IMG/VR virus record: IMGVR_UViG_3300025674_000391
Coordinates: 1-23,915 of that record
DNA from: a virus
Direction: 5' to 3' (one strand)
Length of the DNA: 23,915 bases
A program made the translations under genes and the position numbers. Positions 1 through 23,915 of the stretch are shown piece after piece. The notes beneath the pieces are model-generated. The model saw nothing but the letters and a program-made list of their open reading frames with translations, did not search any database and was not told the DNA's origin. Numbering within the stretch: the first letter of the stretch is position 1; every line of letters begins with the position of its first letter.

Positions 1-269
1 ACAAAGCATCAGAATATAGATATGTTGCCGTTAGTCGTAATTTATTAAAACGCTGGGGTGGTTGGTTAGACTATGGAGATTTTATCGTATTGACCGGAAC
101 TGACGGAAAGGACGGAGTGTATCAAGTCAAAGATACAATGAACGAAAGATTTGTAAATCGTATTGATATCTTGGAATCACCAGGTACAAAACCATATATG
201 TTTTCAAGTGCCAAGATTAAGAAAGCAAATCTAAACGAAGATATAAAATTTGTTACAGAAAAAAAATAA
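1..269 (+). CDS. 3D-domain (double-psi beta-barrel) protein, C-terminal part only
   Basis: This is an open frame entering from the left edge (frame starts at base 3) and ending at TAA 267-269, about 88 codons visible. The pattern VAVSRNLLKRWGG, then a YGD turn, then DTMNERFVNRIDIL resembles the 3D domain (named for its three Asp residues), a double-psi beta-barrel seen in peptidoglycan-acting enzymes and in many phage proteins of unknown role. The D-T-M-N and N-R-I-D segments would be two of the conserved Asp positions. The tail after this is Lys-rich and ends in KK. The N-terminus lies outside the window, so a catalytic or targeting domain could be missing. A role in cell-wall processing or lysis is an inference from the family. 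No hairpin terminator is visible after the stop. Confidence 0.55.
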   Translation, partial: KASEYRYVAVSRNLLKRWGGWLDYGDFIVLTGTDGKDGVYQVKDTMNERFVNRIDILESPGTKPYMFSSAKIKKANLNEDIKFVTEKK

Positions 270-289
270 TCTATTTTTACACAATGATA

Positions 290-304
290 TTATATTTATA
301 TTTG
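290..304 (+). promoter_or_regulatory. Possible promoter before the accessory cassette
   Basis: The 81-base gap between the 3D-domain gene and the ATG at 351 contains TTATATTTATA (290-300), which shares its core with the motif before 8347, 18711 and 21767. The overlapping TATATTTG (297-304) also fits the Bacteroidetes-type -7 element TAnnTTTG. There is no clear -35 TTGACA. GAGG at 341-344 is the ribosome binding site for the next gene. Which polymerase form reads this promoter cannot be decided from sequence. Confidence 0.35.
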
Positions 305-350
305 TAGAGAAATAACTAAACATTAATAATTAAAAAATATGAGGTATTAA

Positions 351-1529
351 ATGAGTTTTGAAAACTTTTTCGGACAACCCGAGTTCGACTACGACGGAGA
401 AAAACAAAAGTTCATAAACAATATGGACTATCTAAAATCTCAATCAGTTCAAGAAGCAACATTATGGAAGAAGTGGGAAGAATTTAATAAAGAACCACAA
501 TACTATATGGATAGAGCAGATAGTATTGATAGGTTAGAAAAAACACTTTGGACACCAACAGACATCTACAATAAAGAATTAACTATATCAGAAATCAATG
601 CAATCGAACCAATCATAGAAGTTGTAGAACAAGGAACAGGAGATGATTGGATATTAACAAGACGATTGATTCACTCTATGGAGTTCACAGCAAATCCAGG
701 TCGTAATGTAAAGTTCTTCGTTAAAGACAAAACCACCAATAAGGTATTGGGTGTAATCTCATTAGGTAGTGATGTAACTTCATTAGGAGTTAGAGATGAG
801 TATATCGGTTGGACAAAAGATGATAAGTTTAAAAACGGAAGACTAAATCATACTGCAATCGGTTCTACTATTTGTTGTACACAACCACTTGGATTTAATT
901 TCTTGGGTGGTAAGTTGGTAGCAGCTATGGTTACATCAGGAACAATTCGTGATACTTGGAAAGAACTATATGGACAAACCGTAGTTGGTTTTTCTACAAC
1001 TGCATTGTATGGTATTCACTCAATGTATAATGGAATACCACATTGGAAAACTCTTGGAGAAACCAAAGGTAAGATTAGTTTAAAACCGGACGATAAGTTT
1101 TATGATGTATGGCATCAATGGTTGAAAGACAACAATCGAGAAGAATACGACAAGGTTACAACATCAACTACCGGACAACCAGTCACAGGTATCAAACAAA
1201 AAATTCTACAATTGATTTACAAAGAATTAGGAATTAAACGAGCAGAATATGAACACGGATTTAAACGAGGTTGTTATTATGCAGATTTATATCAAAATGG
1301 AAAAGAGTTTCTAAGAAGTGAAATCACAGAAGATGAATTAATTATGAAACCTAAATATGAACAAGATGTAGAGTATATTAAAAACTGGTGGAAACCAAAA
1401 GCAATCAACCGATATACAAAACTATTAGAAGAAAACAGAATCAAACCAGAGAAGTTATATTATAAAGATATCATCAATACTTCTTGGGAAGAAACAAAAG
1501 AAAAATACTTAGGAGAAATAGGTAGATAG
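351..1529 (+). CDS. DruA/DUF4338-like protein
   Basis: A 392-residue protein with ATG preceded by GAGG seven bases upstream. Residues about 95-245 have the look of the DUF4338 domain found in DruA of the Druantia defence system: a strand-rich start with VLGVISLGSDV (132-142), RDEYIGW (149-155), a run of conserved small and polar residues including the Cys pair C175-C176, NFLGGKLVA (183-191), then a helix and an LYG-containing strand (207-223). The part after about residue 280 is charged and helical and contains KRGCYYADLYQN (305-316), probably a second conserved module. DruA has no settled biochemical activity that I can cite, so none is assigned. Here it stands without other Druantia genes and abuts a glycosyltransferase gene (1-base overlap, TAGTG), so a role linked to DNA modification is plausible. 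The family call rests on recognised pattern only. Confidence 0.5.
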   Translation: MSFENFFGQPEFDYDGEKQKFINNMDYLKSQSVQEATLWKKWEEFNKEPQYYMDRADSIDRLEKTLWTPTDIYNKELTISEINAIEPIIEVVEQGTGDDWILTRRLIHSMEFTANPGRNVKFFVKDKTTNKVLGVISLGSDVTSLGVRDEYIGWTKDDKFKNGRLNHTAIGSTICCTQPLGFNFLGGKLVAAMVTSGTIRDTWKELYGQTVVGFSTTALYGIHSMYNGIPHWKTLGETKGKISLKPDDKFYDVWHQWLKDNNREEYDKVTTSTTGQPVTGIKQKILQLIYKELGIKRAEYEHGFKRGCYYADLYQNGKEFLRSEITEDELIMKPKYEQDVEYIKNWWKPKAINRYTKLLEENRIKPEKLYYKDIINTSWEETKEKYLGEIGR

Positions 1530-2566
1530 TGAGGATAGTTTTACCATACAATGACCACCTTGGTAAGTTTAGTAAAACTAACTTTGTTGGTGGGATTGAA
1601 AAATTTTGTGTTCAGATAATGGAAACATATGATGATGTTCACATTATCAATATTAACAACAAAGAAAATCCTAAAGACAACACAGAAAAAATAAAGAACT
1701 TTGCAAGAGAAAAAAATGCAGACATCATTATATCTAATTGGCATCAAGCATCTTTTGTTGGTTCATCTATTACAGATTCAGAAATTCCTATTATGTTTTT
1801 ATATCACTCATTACCTTCTTTTGGTTCGTTTATTAAAACTGCACTTAACCTAAAGAAACACAATCACTCTTGTTTTTTTGTTAGTGAATATCAACACAAT
1901 ATAGTTAATGAGTTGGGTAAAAGATTTAAAGAAGACTATCTTGATGCTGATGGTTTTATAAATTCAAGTTATGTAATCGGAGATAAACCAAAACTAAAAG
2001 AGATAGAATATGATTGTATCACTATCGGTAGATGTGAACCAACAGAAAAGAAACCTTTTTTATTAAAAGAATATTTGAAAGATACTGATTATAAAAGTAT
2101 GGTTATTACAACTAATCCAATAAATGAAAAAGAAAAAAAATATATTGAGAATAATTCTAATTGGGATAATGTATTAATGGGAATAAAACATTCAGAAGCT
2201 ATGGAACACTTATCAAAGTCTATGACTTACTTTTCTACAATGCCATTTGAAACTTGGGGTATCACGGCATTAGAAGCATTATCTCACGGAGTTCCAATAA
2301 TTTTAAATTCAAAGAAAATGAAACATTCATCTGAAAGTATACCGGCATCTAACAAACATTATAAGAAAATATTGTGGGATAAGAAAGTTGGTTCAGAACA
2401 ATTGATATCTGCTATTGAAAGTTTTAGAAATATAGACAGAAAAGAAATACAAGATATGACTTGGGATAAACATAATCATACTGAATGGAAAGATAATTTT
2501 TCTAATTGTATTGACAAAACATTAGATAATTTTAAAAAAAATAATAAATTTGAAAAATTTACTTGA
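1529..2566 (+). CDS. GT-B glycosyltransferase (GT4-like)
   Basis: A 345-residue protein starting with GTG that overlaps the preceding TAG by one base, which indicates translational coupling. The N-terminal Rossmann half carries the GGIEKF motif (residues 21-26) typical of GT4 enzymes that use nucleotide sugars. The C-terminal half contains FETWGITALEALSHGVP (240-256), where E241 and E249 form the EX7E motif, followed by a hydrophobic strand IILN. At 345 residues it is compact but complete for a GT-B fold. Acceptor and donor are not visible. Because a second glycosyltransferase downstream carries a DNA-binding-like domain and the genome is a phage, modified DNA bases are a reasonable acceptor, but capsid protein or host surface glycan cannot be excluded. 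The C-terminus is Lys/Asn-rich. The promoter of the next gene begins three bases before this stop codon. Confidence 0.8.
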   Translation: MRIVLPYNDHLGKFSKTNFVGGIEKFCVQIMETYDDVHIININNKENPKDNTEKIKNFAREKNADIIISNWHQASFVGSSITDSEIPIMFLYHSLPSFGSFIKTALNLKKHNHSCFFVSEYQHNIVNELGKRFKEDYLDADGFINSSYVIGDKPKLKEIEYDCITIGRCEPTEKKPFLLKEYLKDTDYKSMVITTNPINEKEKKYIENNSNWDNVLMGIKHSEAMEHLSKSMTYFSTMPFETWGITALEALSHGVPIILNSKKMKHSSESIPASNKHYKKILWDKKVGSEQLISAIESFRNIDRKEIQDMTWDKHNHTEWKDNFSNCIDKTLDNFKKNNKFEKFT

Positions 2567-2591
2567 CATTGTTAAAAAAATTTTGTATATT
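2563..2591 (+). promoter_or_regulatory. Sigma70-type promoter for the DUF262-HNH gene
   Basis: TTGACA (2563-2568), a spacer of exactly 17 bases, then TATATT (2586-2591). The -35 box is perfect and the -10 box differs from TATAAT at one position. It overlaps the last codon of the upstream glycosyltransferase. It gives the nuclease gene its own, presumably early, transcription by host polymerase, with a leader of about 90 bases. Confidence 0.75.
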
Positions 2592-2600
2592 AATATACAA
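2583..2600. promoter_or_regulatory. 18-bp perfect palindrome over the -10 box (candidate operator)
   Basis: TTGTATATTAATATACAA is a perfect inverted repeat with no spacer, and it contains the whole -10 element. A dimeric repressor bound here would block the promoter. The AT-rich composition makes short palindromes common, but 9-bp half-sites centred on a strong promoter are less easily explained by chance. No obvious repressor gene is in the window. Confidence 0.5.
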
Positions 2601-2614
2601 TTATATCGTGGATA

Positions 2615-2630
2615 CCAGATATCCAGATAT
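2615..2630 (+). repeat. Tandem 8-bp repeat in the leader
   Basis: CCAGATAT occurs twice back to back (2615-2622 and 2623-2630), about 25 bases downstream of the -10 box. It could be a second regulatory protein site or chance. TATAAT follows at 2631-2636 but lacks a matching -35 box. Confidence 0.35.
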
Positions 2631-2652
2631 TATAATAACGGGGGAAAGAATA

Positions 2653-2712
2653 ATGGATGTCGAGTACCCAATAACGAATAGGAGACAAATATGTCGACAA
2701 TCGATAAAATAG
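2653..2712 (+). CDS. Possible 19-residue leader peptide overlapping the nuclease start
   Basis: An ATG at 2653 follows a G-rich ribosome-binding-like stretch (GGGGG at 2640-2644) and reads MDVEYPITNRRQICRQSIK before TAG 2710-2712. It overlaps the first seven codons of the nuclease gene in another frame. Translation of this peptide would compete with or couple to initiation at 2691. It may be only a chance frame. The placement directly in the leader of a potentially toxic nuclease makes an attenuation-like role worth noting. Confidence 0.25.
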   Translation: MDVEYPITNRRQICRQSIK

Positions 2713-4364
2713 TAGATAACATCAAATCTACACAAGAACAGAAGGCAACTGAAAATGCCGAATCAAAATGGTTATATATGGATGCGAGTGGAAACACTAC
2801 ACCAATTGATGAAAGTCAAATAACCTTAATGTCTATTGAGGATTATATCAGATGTGAAATAGCAAATGATGTATTCAGTAATAGAGCAGGAGAACCTACA
2901 CCACTTTCAACAAGGGGTGGAGTTTCAGTAAAATGGTTATACGAAATGTATAACACCCAAACCCTTGAAACGGGTTCAAGAGAGTATCAACGAGAAAAAG
3001 TTGCAACTCTTGCATTTAAACAAGATATGATTAAAACAATTCTATGTAGACCTTGGTCGAGAATACCAGAGGTACACATCAGAGTAATCGTAAAAAATGG
3101 AGTACCTTACTATGAAATCATAGATGGTCAACAAAGAATACGAGCATGTATTATCGGATTCTTAAAGAATGAGTTCAAATTACCAAAAGGGTTTATGGTA
3201 GGAAACTTAGACCTTGGTGAGATGAACGCACAAGATGTGAGAAATAAGTTTCCACATCTATATGAGGAAATTCTAAATTACAGAATAACAAATACTTGGT
3301 ATGAAAACCTTTCAGACGAAATGACATCTGAGTTATTTGTAGAGGTATTGAACAAAACAAATGATATGAAACCACAAGAAAAACGAAATGCAGTCAGAGG
3401 TTTCCTATCATCTTACATTAGAGATAATGCAAGATTCGAAGTTCACGAACTATTCAGTCGTGATATTACAAATGTAGGAACAAAGAAAGAAAAACAAGTT
3501 CTTAAATATTTTCCTAATTTAAAACTAAATGGGAGAATGGAAGCAGACGAATTTCTTTCTCAACTTCTTTATGGAGTAGTCAAGGGTTGGAGAAGTGGAG
3601 TTTCTGAAAATCCATTGACTAATTGGGTTAAAACCGAACAAAAAGACGGAGCAACTTACAAGGTTCAACAATCTTGGAAAAGTGCAAAAAAAGAGTTTGA
3701 CACCTTTTTGGACTTTTGTTTGGGGATAGTTAAAACAATTAGTCCAAATAATAAGAAACGACTAACCAAGAATATGGCATTCAATTTATTACTATATGGG
3801 TATGACTTACATACCACATATGGAAAGTTGGACAAACAAATGTATACAGATTGGTGGTTTGATGTTTACACTCGTTGGAGTGAAAACTCAAAGAACAAAA
3901 CACCACTATATCACGGACATACATTTCCAGGTAGTCCCGATAGAGACTTACCACAATTTGACGCACTATTTAGTGGGTTGAATAAGAATAGCATAAGTGC
4001 TCAAATTTATGTTTTGGATTTGGAACTTAACAAAGACAAATCTAAAGCAGGAGTGGTTGAGTTAGACCAAAGAGAAACTTTCTCTAAGTCTGATGTTCAG
4101 AAAAAGTTTTTTGAACAAGGACAGAAATGTTTCTACACAGGTGAACCATTAAACTTATCAAACGCAGCTGGTGACCATTATATCGCCAGAAGTTTGGGCA
4201 TTGCAAGAGGTGGTGTAACTGAATATGATAACTTAGTTATCACAACATCACTTTTGAACAATGAAAAAGATAACAAAACACCGGAGGAATTTCATAAGTT
4301 CCTTGTAAAAAGAGGTTATAATATTTCACCGGAGTTTGAAGCAAGGTTACAGGAAACCAAATAA
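2691..4364 (+). CDS. DUF262 + HNH nuclease (GmrSD-like, fused)
   Basis: A 557-residue protein starting at ATG after AGGAGA (2680-2685). Residues about 80-170 carry the DUF262 (ParB-like) signature: REYQREK (97-103), a helix, RIPEV (124-128), and the catalytic or nucleotide-binding motif DGQQR at 145-149. A long middle region (200-440) is helical. The C-terminus is an HNH-type module: C480 in KCFYTGEPL, the D495-H496 pair, N514 in EYDNLV, and N524/K526. DUF262 with a C-terminal HNH domain is the architecture of GmrSD type IV restriction enzymes, which cleave glucosylated hydroxymethylcytosine DNA. GmrSD homologues usually carry DUF1524 as the HNH part; here the HNH part looks more like the CxxTGEPL type. 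A phage carrying such an enzyme between two glycosyltransferases is notable. Possible roles are destroying rival or host DNA or acting on modified bases. The stop overlaps the next ATG (TAATG). Confidence 0.7.
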   Translation: MSTIDKIVDNIKSTQEQKATENAESKWLYMDASGNTTPIDESQITLMSIEDYIRCEIANDVFSNRAGEPTPLSTRGGVSVKWLYEMYNTQTLETGSREYQREKVATLAFKQDMIKTILCRPWSRIPEVHIRVIVKNGVPYYEIIDGQQRIRACIIGFLKNEFKLPKGFMVGNLDLGEMNAQDVRNKFPHLYEEILNYRITNTWYENLSDEMTSELFVEVLNKTNDMKPQEKRNAVRGFLSSYIRDNARFEVHELFSRDITNVGTKKEKQVLKYFPNLKLNGRMEADEFLSQLLYGVVKGWRSGVSENPLTNWVKTEQKDGATYKVQQSWKSAKKEFDTFLDFCLGIVKTISPNNKKRLTKNMAFNLLLYGYDLHTTYGKLDKQMYTDWWFDVYTRWSENSKNKTPLYHGHTFPGSPDRDLPQFDALFSGLNKNSISAQIYVLDLELNKDKSKAGVVELDQRETFSKSDVQKKFFEQGQKCFYTGEPLNLSNAAGDHYIARSLGIARGGVTEYDNLVITTSLLNNEKDNKTPEEFHKFLVKRGYNISPEFEARLQETK

Positions 4365-7942: not shown

Positions 7943-7944
7943 CA

Positions 7945-7968: not shown

Positions 7969-7980
7969 GTAATTCCACCT

Positions 7981-8202
7981 TTATTTGTTGAGTAATCCGA
8001 ATATCACGATAAATGATAGAAATCCAGCAAATCCTGCATTACTAAAAGAATTTACCAAATTAATCAAATTACCAACAATGTCGATGCCTAAGAACCCACC
8101 TACAAATACTAATTGTACGAGAACCCCTAATCCGATAATGTGATACAATAAGTCTTTAATTCCGACTATTGAATCCAATATCAATTTCATTGCGTCTTTC
8201 AT
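7981..8202 (-). CDS. Small two-span membrane protein (holin-like size)
   Basis: A 73-residue protein and the only convincing gene on the - strand. Its ATG has a strong ribosome binding site on the - strand (AGGGGA about 9 bases upstream), which supports it being real. Residues about 20-45 and 53-71 are hydrophobic and Gly-rich (for example VLVQLVFVGGFLG and GFAGFLSFIVIFGLL), with a short amphipathic N-terminus containing three Lys and three Asp. Size and topology would suit a holin, but small phage membrane proteins have many other roles and no endolysin is next to it. It is convergent with the lipoprotein gene, with which it shares the 7945-7968 terminator, and divergent from the structural genes. 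Confidence 0.65.
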   Translation of the reverse strand: MKDAMKLILDSIVGIKDLLYHIIGLGVLVQLVFVGGFLGIDIVGNLINLVNSFSNAGFAGFLSFIVIFGLLNK

Positions 8203-8228
8203 TTTAGTTTCCCCTTTTAAATGAACAA

Positions 8229-8249: not shown

Positions 8250-8290
8250 CCTATATAACTATATGGTATTTTTAAAAAAATAAACCGATA

Positions 8291-9652: not shown

Positions 9653-10129
9653 ATGAAGAAAAACGAATTAGTAAAAATAATCGAATTAGTTGTTCGTAAA
9701 GAAATCAAAAAACAACTTAGTGAGATATTTATTAATGACAAAAAAGAAATTAGTTTATCAGAAGTAATTTCTAAACCAAAACCAGAAGTAAAACAAAAAC
9801 CTAAAAAACAATACACGAAAAACCAAGCGTTAAATGAAGTATTGAACAACACGAACCCATTAGGTAAATCACGAGATGAAGAATGGCCTACATTGGGTGG
9901 TGGAGTATTAGGTAGTGACAATATGGCAGAAGTTTTAGGATATGGAGATTTGGGTAGAGGTCAGAATAAAGAAAAGGCACGAGAAGTCGGAGCAGTTCAA
10001 ACTATTAAGAAACAAGGAGTCAATGTTGATTCAGTTCCAGAAGATGTAGTAAACGCACTAACTCGTGATTATTCTGGTTTGATGAAAGCAATCAATAATA
10101 AGAAAAAAGGTGAGAACTTTAGACCATAA
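9653..10129 (+). CDS. Uncharacterised baseplate-operon protein
   Basis: A 158-residue protein with ATG after AGGAG. It has a basic helical N-terminus (residues 1-30), a Lys/Pro-rich linker (about 40-55), then a more structured part with a Gly-rich turn (TLGGGVLGSDN, 83-93) and a last helical region. No signal or membrane segment is present. It lies between the spike-like gene and the gp25-like gene and overlaps the latter (TAATG), so a virion assembly or minor structural role is likely. I do not recognise the family by a named domain. Confidence 0.6.
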   Translation: MKKNELVKIIELVVRKEIKKQLSEIFINDKKEISLSEVISKPKPEVKQKPKKQYTKNQALNEVLNNTNPLGKSRDEEWPTLGGGVLGSDNMAEVLGYGDLGRGQNKEKAREVGAVQTIKKQGVNVDSVPEDVVNALTRDYSGLMKAINNKKKGENFRP

Positions 10130-10545
10130 TGGCAAATGTTAGAGAAATAGATAGAGATGACGACATTTATGTTGGTATTGAATTTCCTTTAGATTATAGT
10201 GTTCAAGGGTTTTTTCGTAAAACAAAAACTATAAGACAACAAGTAAAATCTAATATAAGAAATTTATTATTAACAGAAAGAGGTGAAAGATTATTTCAAC
10301 CGAACTTCGGTTCTAATTTGAAAAGTCTTTTATTCGAACAAATAACACCAACAAACTTAGAAAGTATCGAAAATGATATTAGAAGTTCTTTATCTACTTG
10401 GTTACCTTATGTTAATGTAAATAATTTAGTTGCGGTTCAAGATGATAGAAACCCTAATCAAGTTTTAATATCATTAGAATATTCAACAACACTTGAACCC
10501 GACGCACTTGATACAATCACATTTACTTTTGAAGTAGGAGAATAA
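10129..10545 (+). CDS. 25: gp25-like baseplate wedge protein
   Basis: A 138-residue protein close to the 132 residues of T4 gp25. The gp25/GPW family pattern is clear: VGIEFPLDY near the start, QQVKSNIRNLLLTERGERLFQP (37-58) followed by NFGSNLKSLLFE (59-70), and a C-terminal strand pair VLISLEYSTT and ITFTFEV. In contractile tails gp25 binds the wedge and the inner end of the sheath and starts sheath polymerisation. Despite the historical name 'gp25-like lysozyme', the family is structural. It is followed, one base after its stop, by the gp6-like gene, the usual order in T4-like phages and type VI secretion relatives. Confidence 0.9.
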   Translation: MANVREIDRDDDIYVGIEFPLDYSVQGFFRKTKTIRQQVKSNIRNLLLTERGERLFQPNFGSNLKSLLFEQITPTNLESIENDIRSSLSTWLPYVNVNNLVAVQDDRNPNQVLISLEYSTTLEPDALDTITFTFEVGE

Positions 10546-10546
10546 A

Positions 10547-12484
10547 ATGGCAGTTGATTACAACACAAATAAAAAAGTAGTTAAAAAAGATATAAATTAT
10601 CTCGGTAGAGATTTTTCTTCAATTAGACAAAATCTTATTGAGTTTGCCAAAACTTATTTTCCTTCACAATATAATGACTTCAATGAATCATCACCAGGTA
10701 TGATGTTTATAGAAATGGCATCTTATGTTGGAGATGTATTGAATTATTATGTTGACAATCAATATAGAGAAACTTTATTGAACTACGCAGAAGAAAAGAA
10801 AAATGTTTATAATATTGCACAATCTTACGGATACAAACCAAAAACAGCAGTTCCGGCATCAGTAGAATTAGAAGTTACTCAAACCGTTCCTGCTAAGTCA
10901 GACGGGAGTGGTGGATATGTAGCAGATTTAGATTATGCCGGTGTTATATCATCTAATGGAATCGTTACATCAGATTCAGGAGTTGACTTTACATTAGTAG
11001 ATGAAGTAGATTTTAGAGTGTCGAGTTCACTTGACCCAATGGAAATCGAAATGGTAACACCAAGTTCAGGAGTTGTCCCAACAGACTTTTTATTAAAGAA
11101 AAGAGTATTAGCAAAATCAGGAACAACAACTTCACAAACCTTTACATTTGGTTCTGCTAAAAAATTTGATAAAATTACTTTAGCAAATACAGGAATTAGT
11201 GAAATAGTTTCCATAGTTGATTCCAATAATAATACTTGGTATGAAGTTCCTTTCTTAGCACAAGATACAATTTTTGAATCAATAGAAAACACTTCATTAA
11301 ATGACCCAACATATTCTCAGTATCAAAATGATACACCTTATATGTTGAGATTAGTAAAAACACCAAGAAGATTTATCACCAGAGTTAACGAAAATGATAG
11401 AACAGAAGTTAGATTTGGTGCAGGTGTTAGTGATAATCCAGACGAAGTAATTATTCCAAATCCAGATAATGTTGGTTCAGCATTGGGATTTGGTGTTTCT
11501 AAATTAGATGAGTCATTTGACCCAAGTAATTTTATGAAAACAAAAGCTTATGGGTTGGCACCAGCCAACACAACACTAACCGTTACTTATCGTTATGGTG
11601 GAGCAGTTGAACACAATGTCAGGGCAAACTCAATCACATCAGGTAAGAACATTACTTTTACAATTGATAGTGGTAACTTAGATTCTACAAAAGTTCAAAC
11701 AGCAGAAGATAGTTTATCTTTTAATAATATTTTACCTGCAACTGGTGGAGCATCAAAAGAAACACTAACAGAAATAAAACAAAATGCATTAGCAAATTTA
11801 AATACACAAAACCGAGCAGTAACCAGACAAGATTATTTAACAAGAGTATATTCATTACCACAAAAATATGGTAATATTGCAAAAGCATATATCGTTCAAG
11901 ATGAACAATACGAAACTAATGATGATGGAGAAATAGCAACAATCCCAAATCCTTTTGCTATGAATATGTACTTACTCGGTTATGATGAAGATAGAAAATT
12001 AACATCAGTAAACAATGCAGTAAAACAAAATTTAAAAATGTATTTATCACAATACAGAATTTTAACAGATGCGATTAATCTAAAAAATGCTTATGTAATT
12101 AATATTGGTGTTAGATTTGCAATTATCAAACAAAGAGGATACAACCAAAGTCAAGTATTGTTTAATTGTGTTCAAGCAGTTAAGAAACACTTTGATGTGT
12201 CTAAATGGCAAATTAATCAACCAATCGTATTAAGTGATATTGCTTATCAAATATCATTGGTGGACGGAGTAGCAAGTGTTGTTCCACCGAGAAGTAATAA
12301 TCCAAACAATCAACTAATTGTAATTGAAAACAAAGCAACCACATCACAAGGATATAGTGGAAATGTATATGATGTACAAACAGCAACAAGAAATGGTGTT
12401 GTATATCCTTCATTAGACCCAAGTATCTTTGAAGTGAAATTTCCTAATCAAGATATATTAGGAAATGTAGTAGGAGAGATTTAA
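10547..12484 (+). CDS. 6: Baseplate wedge protein, gp6/J-like
   Basis: A 645-residue protein, close to the 660 residues of T4 gp6. The start has DINYLGRDFSSIRQNLIEFAKTYFP (residues 15-39) and NESSPGMMFIEMASYVGDVLNYYVD, characteristic of the gp6/Baseplate_J family. The middle is beta-rich; a conserved-looking LNTQNRAVTRQDYL segment near 420-435 and a C-terminal alpha/beta part ending in a DISxxxxSLVDGVASV-like turn match J-type wedge proteins. Gp6 forms the ring of the baseplate wedge around the hub. The gene has a GGAG ribosome binding site in the end of the gp25-like gene and overlaps the next gene (TAATG). Confidence 0.88.
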   Translation: MAVDYNTNKKVVKKDINYLGRDFSSIRQNLIEFAKTYFPSQYNDFNESSPGMMFIEMASYVGDVLNYYVDNQYRETLLNYAEEKKNVYNIAQSYGYKPKTAVPASVELEVTQTVPAKSDGSGGYVADLDYAGVISSNGIVTSDSGVDFTLVDEVDFRVSSSLDPMEIEMVTPSSGVVPTDFLLKKRVLAKSGTTTSQTFTFGSAKKFDKITLANTGISEIVSIVDSNNNTWYEVPFLAQDTIFESIENTSLNDPTYSQYQNDTPYMLRLVKTPRRFITRVNENDRTEVRFGAGVSDNPDEVIIPNPDNVGSALGFGVSKLDESFDPSNFMKTKAYGLAPANTTLTVTYRYGGAVEHNVRANSITSGKNITFTIDSGNLDSTKVQTAEDSLSFNNILPATGGASKETLTEIKQNALANLNTQNRAVTRQDYLTRVYSLPQKYGNIAKAYIVQDEQYETNDDGEIATIPNPFAMNMYLLGYDEDRKLTSVNNAVKQNLKMYLSQYRILTDAINLKNAYVINIGVRFAIIKQRGYNQSQVLFNCVQAVKKHFDVSKWQINQPIVLSDIAYQISLVDGVASVVPPRSNNPNNQLIVIENKATTSQGYSGNVYDVQTATRNGVVYPSLDPSIFEVKFPNQDILGNVVGEI

Positions 12485-13959: not shown

Positions 13960-16900
13960 ATGGCAGATTATGGATTAACAAAAGCACAAAAAACTTCTTA
14001 CTTTTCATTAGAAAAAAGAAGAACTGGATTTGGTAATTTATTATCACCAGGTGTATTTGGACAAAAAGATTATGTTCATTTATTTGTTTATGATTTAAAC
14101 AATATCCTTATTGGTGATAAAATAATTTATTATGATGAACTTGTTGAACAAAACCAAACGACCAGCGATACCGTAAAGTTAAATATCGGACAACACCTTA
14201 GAGAATATCTTCAATTATTTGAGGGAGACTATAAAGTCAAATATAAGTTCTTAAGACAAATTAGTGGTAATTCTGAACAAGATTTTTTATATGATATAAA
14301 TGGTCGTGGTATTTATGAAGGTGAATTTGTAGTTGAAAATGGTAAGTATTATAAAGTTGATGCTGATGGAAATGCAGACAAAGATAACGAATTAAGTTTA
14401 GAAAATTATTCATATCGTATTACCGATAACAATCCCACAAGGGATGAAGTTTTAATTCAAGGTAATCCACAACTCGACGGGGATTTACAAGAATTATTAA
14501 ACAGAGATTTATTTAAAATCAATACAGAATTAATTTACAATCCACTTCGTGTTATTCAATCAACAGAACGAAGAATAAAATTCCAAGAAGATAAATTTGA
14601 AAATCAAAGTTTTATTTTAACAATACCAAACAATAATATCAATGGTTTTACAAAATCAATGGAAGGTAATAGAATTGTTTTTGAAAACTTTTTTAAAGCA
14701 CTAATTCCAACACACTTTAAAGGTCAATATTTAATATCAAATTCAGGAACAAGAAGTGTTGATGGGGTTAGTCGTGGTAACTATTGGAAAAATTATTTAG
14801 TTCCAGGTTCCATTAATGCAAATGTAAAAATACCAACAGATAGTTATGAAGTAAATCAACAGGACACAAGAATACCAGTACCTTTTTTACAAAATGTACC
14901 ATCTGCATTAGTTTCAAATCAAGACTCTACTGATATTTCAAACAATCAAGGATACTTTGAAAAACGACGAACAAAAAATTTAAACATCAGTAGTTTAACT
15001 ATTTTACCATCTAGCATATGGATGACCACCGATGCTGGCCCCAAAGACGGAGAGTTTAGTAAACGTGTTTCCGGTAATAATGATTATGAATTAAAAGGTA
15101 CTTTTCCATATCAATATGATAAAGCAAATGATAGTGACAATATTGATTTAAATAAAAAATTAAATGTTAATGTAGCTTATAATTCTGGTAATTCTACAAA
15201 TGTTTACATTGATTGGACTACTGAAATTGTAAAAGTTATTGATAAAAATACGATACAAGTAAAAGCAAATTTAAAAGAACTTTATTATCAATTAAGAGAA
15301 TTAGGATTTAAAATTAACCAAATAGGAAATTTAGATTACACTTTTCCAAAACAAATCGAACAATTATCGTTTGATAAAATGTATTCTGAAAATTTTTATA
15401 TTTTAACTAAATTAAATGATGTTGCAGATTATAAAACATATCTAAAAGTTTATAATGATTTTTACTTAATTACCAATACAAAAGAATATCGTATACCAGG
15501 TAACATTGGATATTATTTAAAACTTCAACAACCATTACAACCCAATGTAATAACTAATATTGATTTAGCGAACAATGAAAATGTTTCATTATCGCCGGTA
15601 ACCATAGTTGAAGAAATATTTTTTGATTATGAAGACAATATAAGTTTGATTCCAAGACAAGTCGTAAATGATACATTTTTATTACCGGCAAATTTTGACG
15701 GAGTTCAAAATGATATTCAACCAAACTCATCAGATTACCAAAGTCACAATACATTATTAGGTAGTGATGATGAACAAAATAGAAAGTTAGAAAGACTACT
15801 AACTTCTGGTAGTTTATTAGATGTTCAACCAAATATTGATTATCAAAAAACCACAACAGACTTAACTATTGAAGCAGATGATACTGGTTTTGGAAACTTT
15901 GTTCACTTTTCAAATGCAGAAAGAAGACTTCGTAATTTTGAAAAGAAGTTACAATTAATTGAAGGATATAATTCAAATAGTTCTTCTTTGTTATCAATAA
16001 CAAGTTCTTTACCAAAAATACGAAAGATAGAAAAGCAAAGACAACGAGTAATTGATTCGTTTACCCCATATGAAGATTATTTATACTTTCAAAGTTCATC
16101 TTATTCAAGTGGGTCTAATGGACAATTCCACGATACATCTTGGCCAAAAACCAATTCATCAGCACCATACACATTAGCTGCAATTGGAAGTTCACAGGCA
16201 AATACTTGGTTCAACAATATGATAGCAAGTGCTTCAAATTACGATTATAATAATCAAAACTCTTTGAGAAATTCTTTACCAGAACATATAAATCAAGACC
16301 CAAGTAATAATGTATTTTTAGAATTTATGGATATGGTGGGTGAACAATTTGATGAAACTTGGACTTATGTAAAATCATTAAGTGATATCAATATGAGAGT
16401 TAATAATGTATCGGAAGGTATATCAAAAGATGTTGCTAAGTACTATGCCGAAGCATTAGGAGTAAAACTTTTTGACGGAAATGCATTAGTAGATTTATCA
16501 GAATTTTTATTAGGACAGAATACCGACGGAACAAGTAAAAACGAATCATCAGGTGAAGCATTAACAGAAGAAACTTGGAAAAGAATTTTAGCAAACTTAC
16601 CTTACTTTATCAAAACAAAAGGAACAGAAAGAGCATTAAAAGGAATTTTAAATTGTTACGGAATACCAAGTTCAGTATTGAGAGTTAGAGAGTATGGTGG
16701 GCCAGATAAAGGAACAAGAGTAAGTTATGAAATTAAAAGAAAGTTTACCTACGCATTAGATTTTAAAGCAGGACAATACATTAAAACTGATTGGAAATCT
16801 CAAAATAATTTATATCCAAATACCATAGAATTTAGATTTAGAACACCATATAGTGTTGGTTCATCAGGTTCAATGGTATTAGTTCAGAAGTCAGGTTCTA

Positions 16901-18642
16901 TTGATGACGGAAGTTGGGCAATATCTTTACAAGACAATGGTGCAACAGACAATTACGGACATTTAAGATTTAGTATTAGTGGTTCGGACGGAACAAAAGA
17001 ATTTATTACTTCATCATTACAACCATTTTACAATGATGATATGTGGTCAGTTATGTTAACCAGAAAGTTAACATCAACTGGTGCAGAAATTTCAAGTGAA
17101 CTTACATCACAGGATACAACATATGAATTAACTACAAAACAATATGATTCATCCAGACAAAGAATTATTTATTCAGACAACAAAAGTTTTAACACAACAA
17201 ATGTGTTATTCAACGGAGCGTATACTTCTTCCGGTGATTTATACATAGGTGGTAGTGGATTAGGAAATGACGGAACACAATTTAGTGGTTCGTTAATGGA
17301 GTTCAGGTTGTGGTCGGAAGCATTGAGTGGTAGTGTATTTGATAATCACGTTCGTGTTCCAAAAGCATATAATGGTAATTATACATCATCAGCATATGAT
17401 AATTTATTAATACGATTACCATTAGATGATAATAGAAATTTACAAACAAATCCAACCGCATCAAATCTTACTTACTTAAAAACATATTCAGGAAATATAT
17501 CAGGTAGTAATGTTGACGGATTTACAGGAAACTTCTATCGTTCATTAGTAGACCAAGAAAAAATAAAAGTTCCTAATGTGGGAACTCGTAGAAATGCAAC
17601 TAAGATTAGATTGGAAGATAATTATATTCCAGAAAATGCTCAATTATCATCATTACAAAAACAAGAAAAGTCATCACAAGATTTTGCACCAATAGATTCA
17701 AATAAACTTGGTGTTTACTTTTCACCAACAGATGTAATCAATGAAGATATTATTTATACATTAGCAGACTTTAATCTTGATAATCAAATCGGAGACCCAC
17801 GAGATGAATTTGAATCTTCGTATCGTGGATTATCATTTACCAGAAATGAATACTTTAAACGATATGTCGGTGGACACAATCATTTCTTTGATTATTTACG
17901 AATATTAGATTTCTACGATAATAGTGTATTTGAAGTATTGAAACAATTTGTTCCGGCAAGAGCAAAATCAGATTTCGGTAATTTAATTGAATCTAATATT
18001 TTGGAAAGAAACAAACAAAGAGTTAATAAAAAACCACAAACTACACAACCTTATTATGAAAATGCAAATGACTATCAGGTAGGTATTCAGATATCCAGAT
18101 TTATAAGTGGTTCAAACAATAACATTATAAAATCATCAGGAGAATTTCCATACTACGAAAGTGTCGTGGCATACGCTACTGGTTCAATTCGTGGATTTAA
18201 CAGAGCAACACAAGTTCATATCAATGAAATAAATCCAAGAGTAATTGATAGTAATGCTTATGCAACAGCAAGTGTAACTAAAGGTGGAACTAACATTGAA
18301 TTTAAAGAAGCAGTTCAACCATTTATTAGTGGTTCAAGATTATCACAATTTAATAAGATTAGAGAATTTTATTACACAAGTTCATTAAGTGTATCAACAG
18401 CAAATGGATTTGGTTCAACATATAAAATACCAGGTAACTTATATGTTTGGAGTTCTTCATTAGAACCAACAGACTTAGAAAGAATTACAGCAAATAGTAC
18501 ATCAGATAGATTGATGTATGTAGGTACGAAATTAAATAAAAATACAGATAAAACAGGTGATGACCCAGTTCAAATTACATTTACAACACCAACAAAACTT
18601 GTAACACAACAACCAGGAACATCACGATTAAAAACTAAATAA
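13960..18642 (+). CDS. Giant baseplate/tail protein with LamG-like domain
   Basis: A 1560-residue protein, the largest in the window. The N-terminal ~700 residues are mixed alpha/beta with long beta stretches; a central part has Ser-rich linkers. Residues about 830-905 contain a conserved segment with NLPYFIKTKGTERALKGI beginning near 880 and NCYGIPSS following, a pattern I associate with tail proteins of related environmental phages. Residues about 929-1160 look like a concanavalin A/LamG sandwich: ALDFKAGQYIKT, NTIEFRFRTP, a WSVMLTRK strand and LYIGGSG, then FSGSLMEFRLWSEALS. This fold often binds glycans. The remainder (1160-1560) is beta-rich with repeated SGS turns. Position suggests the gp7-like wedge scaffold or a baseplate-anchored adhesin. 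Its length and lectin-like insert favour contact with host surface glycans. Confidence 0.7.
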   Translation: MADYGLTKAQKTSYFSLEKRRTGFGNLLSPGVFGQKDYVHLFVYDLNNILIGDKIIYYDELVEQNQTTSDTVKLNIGQHLREYLQLFEGDYKVKYKFLRQISGNSEQDFLYDINGRGIYEGEFVVENGKYYKVDADGNADKDNELSLENYSYRITDNNPTRDEVLIQGNPQLDGDLQELLNRDLFKINTELIYNPLRVIQSTERRIKFQEDKFENQSFILTIPNNNINGFTKSMEGNRIVFENFFKALIPTHFKGQYLISNSGTRSVDGVSRGNYWKNYLVPGSINANVKIPTDSYEVNQQDTRIPVPFLQNVPSALVSNQDSTDISNNQGYFEKRRTKNLNISSLTILPSSIWMTTDAGPKDGEFSKRVSGNNDYELKGTFPYQYDKANDSDNIDLNKKLNVNVAYNSGNSTNVYIDWTTEIVKVIDKNTIQVKANLKELYYQLRELGFKINQIGNLDYTFPKQIEQLSFDKMYSENFYILTKLNDVADYKTYLKVYNDFYLITNTKEYRIPGNIGYYLKLQQPLQPNVITNIDLANNENVSLSPVTIVEEIFFDYEDNISLIPRQVVNDTFLLPANFDGVQNDIQPNSSDYQSHNTLLGSDDEQNRKLERLLTSGSLLDVQPNIDYQKTTTDLTIEADDTGFGNFVHFSNAERRLRNFEKKLQLIEGYNSNSSSLLSITSSLPKIRKIEKQRQRVIDSFTPYEDYLYFQSSSYSSGSNGQFHDTSWPKTNSSAPYTLAAIGSSQANTWFNNMIASASNYDYNNQNSLRNSLPEHINQDPSNNVFLEFMDMVGEQFDETWTYVKSLSDINMRVNNVSEGISKDVAKYYAEALGVKLFDGNALVDLSEFLLGQNTDGTSKNESSGEALTEETWKRILANLPYFIKTKGTERALKGILNCYGIPSSVLRVREYGGPDKGTRVSYEIKRKFTYALDFKAGQYIKTDWKSQNNLYPNTIEFRFRTPYSVGSSGSMVLVQKSGSIDDGSWAISLQDNGATDNYGHLRFSISGSDGTKEFITSSLQPFYNDDMWSVMLTRKLTSTGAEISSELTSQDTTYELTTKQYDSSRQRIIYSDNKSFNTTNVLFNGAYTSSGDLYIGGSGLGNDGTQFSGSLMEFRLWSEALSGSVFDNHVRVPKAYNGNYTSSAYDNLLIRLPLDDNRNLQTNPTASNLTYLKTYSGNISGSNVDGFTGNFYRSLVDQEKIKVPNVGTRRNATKIRLEDNYIPENAQLSSLQKQEKSSQDFAPIDSNKLGVYFSPTDVINEDIIYTLADFNLDNQIGDPRDEFESSYRGLSFTRNEYFKRYVGGHNHFFDYLRILDFYDNSVFEVLKQFVPARAKSDFGNLIESNILERNKQRVNKKPQTTQPYYENANDYQVGIQISRFISGSNNNIIKSSGEFPYYESVVAYATGSIRGFNRATQVHINEINPRVIDSNAYATASVTKGGTNIEFKEAVQPFISGSRLSQFNKIREFYYTSSLSVSTANGFGSTYKIPGNLYVWSSSLEPTDLERITANSTSDRLMYVGTKLNKNTDKTGDDPVQITFTTPTKLVTQQPGTSRLKTK

Positions 18643-18656
18643 TAAAATTTAACTTT

Positions 18657-18673
18657 CTTATATTTATTAATGA
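18657..18673 (+). promoter_or_regulatory. Shared late-promoter-like motif, copy 2 of 3
   Basis: CTTATATTTATTAATGA, 37 bases upstream of the ATG at 18711, in a 68-base gap that has no terminator hairpin. It is identical over all 17 bases to the copy at 21728. A gp55-type sigma is encoded in the window, so a divergent late promoter is the simplest reading. Confidence 0.6.
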
Positions 18674-18710
18674 ATAAGAATAGTTATATTATTATCACAG
18701 GAGTAAAATA

Positions 18711-19328: not shown

Positions 19329-19341
19329 GAGATAAAAGAAT

Positions 19342-20670
19342 ATGCCACATACATTATTAAATATTAACGCTATTCCAACAACAAGTCTTGTTGATGCGTT
19401 AAGATATATAGAAAGTAGAGTAACCCCAGGTGATTACCGAGATTATTTTTCTTTGATTGATAGTTTAACAGGAATACCAGCAGCAGTTACACTTTACAAT
19501 CAACAACACGCCAATGGTGGAAATGGTGGTAACGGTGGAAATGGTGGTAACGGTGGAAATGGTGGTGATGGTGGTGATGGTGGAAATACTGGAAATACAA
19601 CACCAAGTCCATTATTAAAACCATTCGGACAATACGACATTTCACAAGTCGATAGACAAGTCGTAACATCAGGATTATTCAGTAATGGTTCAGGAACTTT
19701 AACAGCGTTTCATACGGCATCTTTATTAGGTGATACATCAGCATCTTATGTTGAAGTATATCAAGAAGCAGCAAGTAATTCAACTGCACAAGTTCAATTC
19801 GCAGTTGGATATGCACACATTAACGGAAGTGGTTCTATTGGAAACACAACCAAGACAACTTCTGGAAACAGAGAAACAGCAGCACTTTATAGACAATTTA
19901 GAAATGTAATCTTGGCACCAAACACCAATAAATTTACATTTACTGCAGCACCTGCAGCATCATCATCAGGATATGATGACTTTTATTTCGTAGCATTCAA
20001 TAGAGCACAAATGAGAGAAAAAGTTGACCCAGGTAATTGGGAGTTAAGAATTTCAGGTTCCGGTGGTATCACAAAATTAATTGACGATAGTGGAGCAACA
20101 ACCAATACAAGTGTTAATGTTTCTGGTAGAGTTTATAATGTTGTATCGGGTTCTATTGCAAGTGGAACAGCAGTTACTCACCGAGCAGCATCATTAGAAA
20201 CAGTACTTGGTGCAGCTGGTTTATTCTATCCAGACTTAGGAATCATATTATTGAATCCAGAGTGGGTCGGTAGAAACGATAGTGGTTCAATAGAATTACG
20301 ACCAGGTAGAAGTTCCAATACACTTGATAACAATGCACAAAAGATTTTCACAGCAATTAGTGGTTCAGGATATTTCGCAGCTCGTCGTGAAGAAGAAATC
20401 AATTCAATAAGTTACTTCGCTAGAGCAAGAAATGATGAATTTAACTTTAGTTCTAACCCAACTTACTCAACTGGAAGTATAGATGCTGACGGAGTGAAAA
20501 CAACCGGTAAGTTTAAAGTTGCTACCTTTAAAGGAGACCCAAGAGCTTACATTACACAAGTCGGACTATATGATGATGACCACGATTTAATAGCAGTAGC
20601 AAAATTAAGTCAACCAGTATTAAAATCTTTTTCAAGGGAAGCAGTCATAAAAGTTAAGTTAGACTATTAG
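19342..20670 (+). CDS. Tail-fibre-like protein with Gly-rich repeat
   Basis: A 442-residue protein. Residues 1-58 are a compact N-terminal part; residues 59-82 are eight GGN/GGD triplets, a flexible or polyglycine-helix linker; the rest is beta-rich with many SGSG turns. The final ~100 residues share a pattern with the next protein: an EFNFSSNP-type turn, then YITQVGLYDDDHDLIAVAK and a closing basic beta strand. Gly-rich linkers in phages such as T4-like S16 adhesins form polyglycine-II bundles at fibre tips, which offers a comparison but not a proven homology. Context (after the baseplate block, before a secreted protein) suggests a fibre or adhesin subunit. Ribosome binding site AGGAG overlaps the preceding stop. 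Confidence 0.6.
   Translation: MPHTLLNINAIPTTSLVDALRYIESRVTPGDYRDYFSLIDSLTGIPAAVTLYNQQHANGGNGGNGGNGGNGGNGGDGGDGGNTGNTTPSPLLKPFGQYDISQVDRQVVTSGLFSNGSGTLTAFHTASLLGDTSASYVEVYQEAASNSTAQVQFAVGYAHINGSGSIGNTTKTTSGNRETAALYRQFRNVILAPNTNKFTFTAAPAASSSGYDDFYFVAFNRAQMREKVDPGNWELRISGSGGITKLIDDSGATTNTSVNVSGRVYNVVSGSIASGTAVTHRAASLETVLGAAGLFYPDLGIILLNPEWVGRNDSGSIELRPGRSSNTLDNNAQKIFTAISGSGYFAARREEEINSISYFARARNDEFNFSSNPTYSTGSIDADGVKTTGKFKVATFKGDPRAYITQVGLYDDDHDLIAVAKLSQPVLKSFSREAVIKVKLDY
19516..19587 (+). repeat. Coding minisatellite: eight 9-bp Gly-Gly-Asn/Asp units
   Basis: Eight units of 9 bp, mostly alternating GGTGGAAAT and GGTGGTAAC (an 18-bp higher-order period), with two GGTGGTGAT units near the end. 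Every unit keeps the frame, so gain or loss of units by slippage or recombination would only alter linker length. Confidence 0.95.
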
Positions 20671-20679
20671 GAGTTCCAA

Positions 20680-21708
20680 ATGTTTAAGACTCTCGAATCG
20701 TCTGATAAATCACGCAGAGTAATAGAAACCTTTAAAAGTTTTTCATTTACCAACAACGATAGTGGAAGTGGTGTATATTCTATAAAAGCTCGTTCAGGTT
20801 CTTTTAAAAATTATGTAAGTTCGTCAGATGAAATCACAACCATTACAACCGGTTCCATATCAACAAAATTTTACGGACTTCCAACTTGGAATCTTCTAAA
20901 CACCAGATATTATAAGTTCTTTAATCTCAACACACCGAAAACAGCATATTTCCCTTTCGGTATAGAAAAGTATTCACAACAATCCAGAAGTTTACATTTA
21001 TCTTCTTCGGTATTTAGTATTACAAGAGATTTATATGGTGAAAGAATTAAACCAGGTTCAGTAAAGTTATCCGATACTTCCAATGGACAAACTTGGGATA
21101 TTCGTGATGACGGAGATGGAAACCTTTTTGACTATGCACACTCAGCAAGTTTTGCTGCACACAAGTCAAGTTCATTTAGTATGAGTCAAGGAATTGATGC
21201 CAACGGAAGTGGTAGTGTTATTGGTAATGTATTTTATTCCGACGGATTAATTGTTGTTAATCAAAAAGGTTCATACAAAGATGTTGGATTTGGAACAGGA
21301 TATACTTTACGACATCAAGCAACTCATAGAATAAATGAATATGAATATGTATTGAGAGCACCAGCTGGTGAATTTAATATGAGTTCCAACATCAGTACAA
21401 CAAAAGCTCGAGCAGGATTAATAAGAGTTCCTGCAACAAGCACTAATGATACTGATAGAAGTTGGGTATATCGTTTGTTTCCACCAGGAGACCGACCATC
21501 AGGTGAAGGAACAGGTAGTTTTTCTTCTAATTACACACCTGCTTCACACTCAATCAATGAAATCACCGGTTCAACTTGGTATCCTTATGTAACTCAAATA
21601 GGTTTGTATGATGAAGAAGGAGATTTAATTGCAATAGCAAAACCAGGTCAACCGGTTAAGTTATCCAAAACATTATCTACAACTTTTGTAGTTAGATTCG
21701 ACATCTAA
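20680..21708 (+). CDS. Structural protein paired with the Gly-rich fibre protein
   Basis: A 342-residue protein with AGGAG just before its ATG. The N-terminal 130 residues include GLPTWNLLNTRYYKFF (65-80) and RSLHLSSSVFSI, then GERIKPGSVKLSD, a pattern of structural proteins of related environmental phages. The end contains EFNMSSN, YVTQIGLYDEEGDLIAIAKPGQPV and a final beta strand, which align with the end of the preceding protein. The shared C-terminal domain suggests the two sit on the same attachment surface or form hetero-assemblies. No membrane segment or signal is present. The gene ends 19 bases before the next late-like motif. Confidence 0.6.
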   Translation: MFKTLESSDKSRRVIETFKSFSFTNNDSGSGVYSIKARSGSFKNYVSSSDEITTITTGSISTKFYGLPTWNLLNTRYYKFFNLNTPKTAYFPFGIEKYSQQSRSLHLSSSVFSITRDLYGERIKPGSVKLSDTSNGQTWDIRDDGDGNLFDYAHSASFAAHKSSSFSMSQGIDANGSGSVIGNVFYSDGLIVVNQKGSYKDVGFGTGYTLRHQATHRINEYEYVLRAPAGEFNMSSNISTTKARAGLIRVPATSTNDTDRSWVYRLFPPGDRPSGEGTGSFSSNYTPASHSINEITGSTWYPYVTQIGLYDEEGDLIAIAKPGQPVKLSKTLSTTFVVRFDI

Positions 21709-21727
21709 AACCCTATTTTACCCTAAT

Positions 21728-21744
21728 CTTATATTTATTAATGA
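21728..21744 (+). promoter_or_regulatory. Shared late-promoter-like motif, copy 3 of 3
   Basis: CTTATATTTATTAATGA, 22 bases upstream of the ATG at 21767 and preceding the CGGAG ribosome binding site. It places the secreted-protein gene under the same apparent control as the structural genes. No hairpin terminator separates it from the previous gene. Confidence 0.6.
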
Positions 21745-21766
21745 CAAAAACTCAACGGAGAAAACA

Positions 21767-23915
21767 ATGTTTCGTTCATTAAAAACAATGGTTATGTCAT
21801 TAGTGATGTTTGGTTTTGCCTTTGGTCAAACACCAATCATCAGAGTAAAACAATTAGGAACTTGGTCTACACCAGCAATGTGGTGGAAAGACTCAGTTAC
21901 ACAAGATTTAGATGACTTCTTAGCACAAGATGTTAATAATCCAGCATACGATAATAATAATTTTGATATCTGGAGAGATAAAGTCTTGGAAATGGAAGTC
22001 ACATTAGATGATAATGGTGCAGATATCACTGCACTTAGATTTGATATTGCCTTTGATAACGACTTAATCACTTGGGTAGAATCAGGTGAAACATCAATCA
22101 ACGCTTGGTCACAAGGAGATTCCAAAGTTGTTAAAGGAGATTATATTGACGATTGGACTGAAGGTGATGAATCATCAGGTGCAGATTATTCTTTTGAAGT
22201 GGTTCACTATGCAAACACCGGTTATCAAGATTCATTAGCCGTTGGAACATCAGAAACTTTATATGAAGAAAGTATTTCCGACAACAGATACGATTGGTTA
22301 AGAATCACAATGGTTTCTCACGGAGTTGATGCCAATTCCGACGGAACACCAGATTATACTTTTGGTAATGGTGACGGAACTCAAACACAAGTAATAAAAT
22401 TATATTTTAAAATCAATGATGTCGTTGATGACTTCGCACCAAGAGCATTTAGAATACCAACATTTTACAATGGTTCATCAGGTTATTACACTTATGCTTC
22501 TGATGATTACTTATTAAATTATAAAGTTTACATTGATGGTAATTGGGGTGATTCCTATACAGCAGAAAGAACTTACAACGGAGGTGCTCGTGGTGACATC
22601 ACACTACACCCGAAACTTGTAGACATTGAAGGATATATGAGATACATTGGAGAATACGACGGAACAAATGCATTCTCACGAAACAAATATCCATTTATGA
22701 AAGTTCGTTTTGAAGTAGATGAAACCAATCCAGATAACCTTTCTAATTGGAGAAACATAAGAGATATTAATTATCCAACAAGTTTAACAGACGAATCTCT
22801 AAATGATGATGTTATGGGGACTTACGACGAATACGGAACATTTGCATTAGGGTATCAACATATGAGATACTATGAACAAAATGCCGGAACAACCGGAGAC
22901 CAAAAAATTCAAAATCAAGGGTTTAAAGATGTAAGTTATTGGTATTGGACATACACAGATGATAAAGGATATTTTAATATATCGTTACCACGAAACAACA
23001 GATATCGTGTATCGTTCTGGCCACCAGACGACGGAGATGTCGTTGGAGACCACACAACTTATTTATTAGATAGAGGTGCAATCACTAACATCAATGACGC
23101 TATCGCATCATTTAATTTTCAATCCAACAAGTACGAAAACTCAAATGATATTGATGTTGCAACACCAAGTGCATATTTAATCGGTGATGTAGACGGAGAT
23201 GATGTATTCCAATTAAACGATACATATTTCTTATGGGCATACACATCAGGAGTGTTTGACAATACCTATACACACACCAATGGTGAAACTTATCAATCTT
23301 GGGCATCCATAGATAATTTAAAATCTAACGGAACATCAGAAACTTTAAATTATTATCAAGCATATGATGGAGTCACAAAAAACCAAAGACGAGAGTTCAG
23401 TATATTTGTTGATGATGATTTAGCACAAGAAACCGCAACACTAACACAAGATGCTGGTGGTGTGATTTATTTAAATCCATTAATGGACGAAGTTCAAACA
23501 GGTTTGGATACATTGAGTATTAAGATTGGAGCAGGTAGTTCTACATTTGGAAGTGATGTAAATCCAGATTATTTATTCTCAACAACTGATGCTTCTAAAC
23601 AAGTAGATATCGTTGGGACTGATAATGATTCAGATATCGGATATTACTTTACAGGTGATATGAATTTAACAGGTGTTAAGGTTGATGTAAACGGAACAGC
23701 AACTACACCAAGTGTAGACGGAACAACATATTATCGTTGGGGTAATGGAACACCACCGAGTGAATGGGCAAGAACTCAAGAACAAGAAATGAGAAACTTC
23801 TTAGCCAAGACTGATGTGTTCTTAACTTTACCAGCAGATTCAACAGTAAAAGTTCAAGCAGGTAATCAAGTTGTAGTTCCATTAACCATTACACCAAGTG
23901 TTGATGAGATAAGTG
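21767..23915 (+). CDS. Large secreted protein with cohesin-like and dockerin-like parts (runs off the edge)
   Basis: The frame is open from ATG 21767 to the end of the window (716 codons plus one base), so the C-terminus is missing. Residues 1-20 are a classical Sec signal peptide: basic FRSLK start, hydrophobic core, then AFG before Q21. Residues about 55-215 (EMEVTLDDNGADITALRFDI and onwards) resemble a cohesin-type or Ig-like sandwich. Residues 473-479 (GDVDGDD), followed by F-Q-L-N-D, look like a single dockerin/EF-hand calcium loop. Near residue 700, VQAGNQVVVPLTI may begin a second cohesin-like module. Such parts are typical of exported proteins of the FCB group of bacteria, not of virions. 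CGGAG precedes the start. It could be host-derived cargo expressed late in infection, or an unusual secreted adhesin. Confidence 0.7.
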   Translation, partial: MFRSLKTMVMSLVMFGFAFGQTPIIRVKQLGTWSTPAMWWKDSVTQDLDDFLAQDVNNPAYDNNNFDIWRDKVLEMEVTLDDNGADITALRFDIAFDNDLITWVESGETSINAWSQGDSKVVKGDYIDDWTEGDESSGADYSFEVVHYANTGYQDSLAVGTSETLYEESISDNRYDWLRITMVSHGVDANSDGTPDYTFGNGDGTQTQVIKLYFKINDVVDDFAPRAFRIPTFYNGSSGYYTYASDDYLLNYKVYIDGNWGDSYTAERTYNGGARGDITLHPKLVDIEGYMRYIGEYDGTNAFSRNKYPFMKVRFEVDETNPDNLSNWRNIRDINYPTSLTDESLNDDVMGTYDEYGTFALGYQHMRYYEQNAGTTGDQKIQNQGFKDVSYWYWTYTDDKGYFNISLPRNNRYRVSFWPPDDGDVVGDHTTYLLDRGAITNINDAIASFNFQSNKYENSNDIDVATPSAYLIGDVDGDDVFQLNDTYFLWAYTSGVFDNTYTHTNGETYQSWASIDNLKSNGTSETLNYYQAYDGVTKNQRREFSIFVDDDLAQETATLTQDAGGVIYLNPLMDEVQTGLDTLSIKIGAGSSTFGSDVNPDYLFSTTDASKQVDIVGTDNDSDIGYYFTGDMNLTGVKVDVNGTATTPSVDGTTYYRWGNGTPPSEWARTQEQEMRNFLAKTDVFLTLPADSTVKVQAGNQVVVPLTITPSVDEIS

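Follow-up and report, generated by a model that had tools for sequence, protein, structure and literature searches.

Why does a viral contig of almost 24 kb contain not a single GATC? The window discussed here is the complete IMG/VR virus record IMGVR_UViG_3300025674_000391 (positions 1-23915; 23,915 bp), and an earlier note, made from its letters alone, had reported that this tetranucleotide is missing. An exact count of the whole window confirmed that GATC occurs zero times on either strand. The note's figure of roughly 70 copies expected from independent bases is close to the ~68 that we calculated by hand from the base counts, and a maximum-order Markov model predicts 86.1 copies (z = -11.4), which ranks GATC as the most depleted of all 256 tetramers in the window. 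The claim also survived a codon-based null, which was far from the near-zero value that the note had named as its refutation: when synonymous codons were shuffled 1000 times with protein sequence and codon usage held constant, 59.6 ± 5.8 copies were expected, and the minimum was 41. Rarity of a site against both composition and codon nulls is a mark of Type II restriction-site avoidance, and the window shows it for GATC. The tetramer survey further revealed a depletion of other palindromes that the note had missed. Relative to the Markov expectation, CATG (2/68), ACGT (2/43), CTAG (2/38), GTAC (18/64), and TCGA (23/59) are all reduced.

As the window represents the entire record, the wider genome could be checked through relatives only. 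We used the T4 gp6-like baseplate wedge protein encoded at 10547-12484 as a phylogenetic marker for the lineage and counted tetramers on the viral contigs carrying its IMG/VR relatives (80 loci). In the gp6 clade of the window (39 contigs, 357 kb), GATC was absent against 1212 copies expected, CATG was reduced to 17 of 939, and CTAG, ACGT, GTAC, and TCGA stood at 13-35% of expectation. After larger contigs had been reached through a replication-module gene, the clade comprised 45 contigs and 553 kb, with 0 GATC vs ~1,812 expected, and removal of redundancy at 95% left 481 kb with 0 vs 1,566. Amino-acid identities within the clade are near 60%. CATG is almost gone clade-wide as well (24 observed vs 1,403 expected). 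The comparison with relatives that the earlier note had recommended thus shows the loss to be lineage-wide.

By its predicted gp6/gp25-type baseplate proteins, the window is part of an uncultured lineage of T4-like myoviruses. The closest cultured relatives according to gp6 are Microcystis phage Mel-JY01 (48% identity) and Flavobacterium phage immuto (41%), and homologues of baseplate and terminase proteins in syntenic order place the lineage within the Mel-JY01/Immutovirus group. Every clade contig of 26.9-32.7 kb that carries gp6 is free of GATC, and so are two clade members that an independent collection of genomes contains within a Flavobacteriaceae metagenome-assembled genome (MAG); these two also lack CATG. 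A 70.7-kb clade contig (L176) that encodes terminase, portal, and capsid proteins has 0 of 237 expected copies; it does not include gp6 and was assigned to the clade from its replication and terminase genes, the terminase being 55% and 54% identical to those of Mel-JY01 and immuto, and from its avoidance profile. The complete genome of Mel-JY01 (190 kb; PP395634.1), a phage of which we found no mention in the literature searched, contains neither GATC (0/357) nor CTAG (0/156); its CATG count is 248/477 and ACGT is normal. Three 80-kb contigs of a sister group likewise lack GATC (0/305, 0/264, and 0/297). Together with L176 and Mel-JY01, these contigs show that the loss spans more than one module of the genome.

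The absence of GATC clusters on the baseplate tree. Among the 90 rows of the gp6 tree, 50 have zero GATC, and this label requires 7 changes compared with 29.7 for shuffled labels, with none of 500 shuffles as low. Sister groups hold zero-GATC contigs of 53-80 kb and near-zero ones (1/110, 1/56, and 3/314), and other sister contigs keep between a quarter and two-thirds of the expected sites. Among more distant contigs the overall figure is ~40% of expectation, some of them reach normal levels, and immuto has 503 of 575. The set of avoided palindromes also varies among sub-lineages along the tree. In the group of L025 and L089, TCGA is nearly gone (0/40 and 1/25), as is ACGT, and CATG remains at about half of expectation. 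The sole GATC of the 29-kb L025 contig, at position 7981, lies inside an open reading frame with an N6_N4 methyltransferase domain (L100:7090-8640) that is possibly a newly acquired gene. In the L171-L174 sub-lineage, we found no CATG in any contig (46-60 expected per contig) and GATC at 6-8% of expectation.

Codon choice reveals how the site was removed. Within the clade, Asp before a codon starting with C is encoded by GAC in 625 of 625 cases and never by GAT, whereas elsewhere GAT prevails (5821 vs 2059 GAC). In the window, where Asp is encoded by 378 GAT and 142 GAC codons, all 21 Asp codons before C are GAC. The earlier note had recognized this rule, and both of its examples are correct: positions 4173-4178 read GAC CAT within a nuclease gene (2691-4364), and positions 17794-17799 read GAC CCA within the gene of a large tail or baseplate protein (13960-18642). 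Its second rule, that Gly-Ser is not written GGA-TC, extends to the clade, in which none of 628 Gly codons before TC is GGA; of the 753 Ile codons after G, none is ATC. Outgroup contigs do use these forbidden forms (GAT 302/450). Mutational bias might have been suspected in such an AT-rich genome, since deamination of a methylated C could turn GATC into GATT. However, GATT shows no surplus in the clade (2998 observed/3102 expected), the replacements include the synonymous T-to-C change seen at Asp, and GATC is purged to zero in every codon phase of the clade contigs. An observation of 0 against 1,566 cannot arise by chance either, so that neither mutation nor chance retains appreciable credibility. 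Since nearly all sequences are metagenomic contigs, we also considered an artefact of assembly or library preparation, for instance a restriction digest that had broken the contigs at GATC, but a single metagenome (3300009420) yielded both a GATC-free 53-kb contig (0/207) and a GATC-bearing 29-kb relative (26/101). The deposited genome of the cultured Mel-JY01 and the clade contigs from the independent collection are equally free of the site, and we regard an artefact as practically ruled out. The codon-context counts and the lack of excess GATT show that the loss of GATC is selective, not mutational, and acts on tolerated synonymous positions. The long-term selection proposed in the note is thus borne out, clade-wide and in all codon phases.

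As the source of this selection, we consider elimination of a Type II restriction site under long exposure to GATC-cutting enzymes of the hosts to be the probable explanation. Among the known orthodox Type II enzymes, Sau3AI recognizes GATC (PMC6532042). The T4-like lineage would have met hosts with enzymes of the Sau3AI/MboI/DpnII type, or of the methyl-dependent DpnI type, for many generations, and selection at synonymous and noncoding sites would have cleared every GATC from its DNA, since a genome free of the site could not be cut. The partial losses of CATG, CTAG, GTAC, ACGT, and TCGA may be traces of other Type II specificities that the phages encountered at different times or more rarely. 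Restriction as the agent is also supported by the nature of the other depleted tetramers, which are palindromes such as Type II enzymes recognize. A GATC-cutting nuclease in the host range, one of the alternatives given in the note, is therefore the most likely agent, and most likely the host's own, although it could not be tied to an actual host and the MboI/Sau3AI and DpnI types are indistinguishable in these data.

Complete GATC restriction systems exist in a plausible host family. In a survey of 200 Flavobacteriaceae genomes, seven encode a Sau3AI-type nuclease with two MutH-type stretches in reading frames of 465-481 amino acids, one of which matches the solved structure of Sau3AI (PDB 4pxg, E = 2e-74), and the loci that we read have a C5 methyltransferase gene within or adjoining the operon. 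Strong full-length matches to DpnII-type nucleases are present in three genomes, including a full operon (L110) consisting of a D12 methyltransferase, the nuclease, and a second methyltransferase. Several observations nevertheless weigh against host restriction. Systems of either type are recognizable, among the families searched, in only ~5% of the Flavobacteriaceae genomes. The candidate host MAG and its genus yielded no GATC enzyme when the DpnII and Sau3AI/MutH families were tried, and the MAG itself does not avoid the site (321 observed/363 expected). The bin may, moreover, be a simple collector of phage contigs. As a possible source of the CATG loss, an ICEA/NlaIII-type enzyme, the one family tried here, is rare (1 of 200 genomes); many restriction enzymes match none of the Pfam families that we used. 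The host signals also conflict: the recorded hosts of Mel-JY01 and immuto are Microcystis and Flavobacterium, respectively, and L089 was binned with a gammaproteobacterium. Finally, host systems that are patchy and change fast would not obviously require an absolute zero across such divergence.

This strictness is what a self-imposed constraint would produce, and the note had offered a nuclease encoded by the phage as its other alternative. Such an enzyme would degrade host DNA or exclude rivals, and the phages would have purged its site because they carry no matching methyltransferase. An absence that is absolute and constant at ~60% amino-acid identity agrees with this idea, and since the clade genomes are known in pieces, the gene could sit outside the contigs read. 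However, neither the DpnII (PF04556) nor the MutH/Sau3AI family (PF02976) is represented in 31 phage records, which are mostly fragments but include the complete Mel-JY01, and none of the genes that Mel-JY01 and GATC-free contigs share and immuto lacks is annotated as a nuclease. The nuclease encoded in the window itself, which combines a GmrSD_N-like domain with an HNH/endonuclease VII-like domain, is without a relative among the related contigs compared and thus cannot cause the clade-wide absence. Several depleted palindromes would, in addition, demand several such enzymes. We therefore judge a phage nuclease to be unlikely, and quite unlikely in the specific form of an undescribed family that lacks a protective methyltransferase and for which the missing site serves as a self/non-self mark against host DNA or rivals. 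Very unlikely, in our estimate, is avoidance through methyl-directed mismatch repair or another host process that involves Dam or binding to GATC. This explanation draws on the role of GATC as the target of Dam and MutH in gammaproteobacteria, with one of which the sister contig L089 was binned, and on the proposal of a MutH effect for the equally GATC-free phiX174 (PMC5014478). It leaves the loss of CATG, CTAG, GTAC, and ACGT unexplained, and it is disfavoured in the Flavobacteriaceae, since we found no single-domain MutH in the 200 genomes, where all MutH-family matches have the size of Sau3AI and the loci read contain or adjoin a C5-methyltransferase gene.

If restriction by hosts has shaped these genomes, the phages' own DNA modification should leave GATC exposed, as the note had suggested. 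Searches of the phages with PF04556, PF02976, PF02086, PF01555, and PF00145 returned only methyltransferases of unassigned specificity, and no Dam-family D12 methyltransferase (PF02086) scored above the cut-off in 36 phage records, mostly fragments. Mel-JY01 encodes several N6/N4 methyltransferases and one C5 methyltransferase, and some relatives with DNA methyltransferases are nonetheless free of GATC; these enzymes evidently do not cover the site. Mel-JY01 thus appears to methylate some sites and to delete others. The phage immuto, which keeps GATC, carries QueC, QueD, QueE, QueF, FolE, and DpdA, the genes for 7-deazaguanine in DNA. We found none of these genes in the GATC-free contigs or in Mel-JY01, and FolE, alone among them, matched one further contig (L077), which has GATC. 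The predicted gene contents would fit a choice between avoiding and modifying the site, although this is a single contrast. The suggestion that phage modification does not protect GATC is therefore reasonable, if indirectly supported, by the methyltransferase-bearing relatives and by the contrast with immuto.

The remaining gene content of the window, in which the genes for the DruA-like protein, the nuclease, the gp25-like and gp6-like proteins, and the large tail or baseplate protein lie on the plus strand, combines a conserved baseplate block with accessory genes. The block contains a baseplate wedge gp25-like protein (10129-10545; PF04965, E = 1e-15), the gp6-like protein (phrog_10646, E = 9.5e-20; phrog_219, E = 5.7e-18), and the large tail or baseplate protein at 13960-18642, an open reading frame with relatives in Mel-JY01 and the clade. 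Upstream of it are genes for a DruA-like protein, two glycosyltransferases, the GmrSD-like/HNH nuclease, and an HD hydrolase. The DruA-like protein (DUF4338; 351-1529) matches PF14236 (E = 1.5e-23) and the PADLOC model for DruA of Druantia (E = 6.5e-24). Its relatives among the compared contigs are on L018, L039, and L079, and others are encoded by the Pelagibacter phages Mosig and HTVC008M and by Synechococcus phages. The nuclease matches PF03235 below the curated cut-off (E = 6e-6) and phrog_1035 (E = 4e-7), and its gene is probably a recent acquisition with an anti-phage or nuclease function. At the end of the contig, positions 21767-23914 encode a large secreted-type protein that belongs to no Pfam family and is conserved in the lineage at roughly 50-78% identity. 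It proved uninformative for host inference, as a search of 395 genomes from the phylum of the candidate host gave a single match, on a short, presumed phage contig of the NAT163 MAG. A GroEL-like chaperonin is encoded by a GATC-free clade contig (G254; L203-L206), and immuto has both GroEL and GroES.

Complete loss of GATC as such is already known. Staphylococcus phage K, a lytic myovirus of 140 kb, has eliminated the site, which was ascribed to restriction by Sau3AI of the host (PMC6532042). The phages described here resemble phage K in that GATC has disappeared from a large myovirus genome. They differ from it, for which host and enzyme are known, in belonging to an unrelated T4-like lineage of uncertain host, in the clade-wide extent of the loss, and in a loss of CATG that is almost as complete. 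The haloviruses PH1, SH1, and HHIV-2 lack GATC and have few or no CTAG sites, for which host restriction was invoked (PMC3622292). In these related viruses, too, all members are GATC-free and CTAG is depleted, as in Mel-JY01, but they are archaeal, and a related host is known to possess a methyl-GATC enzyme as well as one for CTAG. Absence of GATC is equally complete in phiX174, whose genome has only 5.4 kb, and in other enterobacterial phages, where Dam methylation and MutH repair were discussed and the cause was left open (PMC5014478). Rusinov et al. (2018) found that palindromes of orthodox Type II systems are wholly or nearly lost in about one-tenth of viral genomes, mainly in non-temperate phages with double-stranded DNA (PMC6286503). 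Unlike that study of viruses with known hosts, the present analysis traces the trait along a phylogeny of uncultured phages. Within the literature searched, the lineage-wide avoidance of multiple palindromes in uncultured T4-like phages and Mel-JY01 is, as far as shown, new.

Across half a megabase of one lineage a four-base site has vanished entirely, which is a direct record of what these uncultured phages have encountered in their hosts. Such hosts are predicted to carry enzymes cutting GATC and CATG, and the avoided sites offer a criterion for the host search that needs neither a spacer nor co-culture. With avoided sets that shift between sub-lineages and one relative that apparently modifies its bases, the lineage provides a natural system for the question of when phages delete a restriction site and when they modify it.

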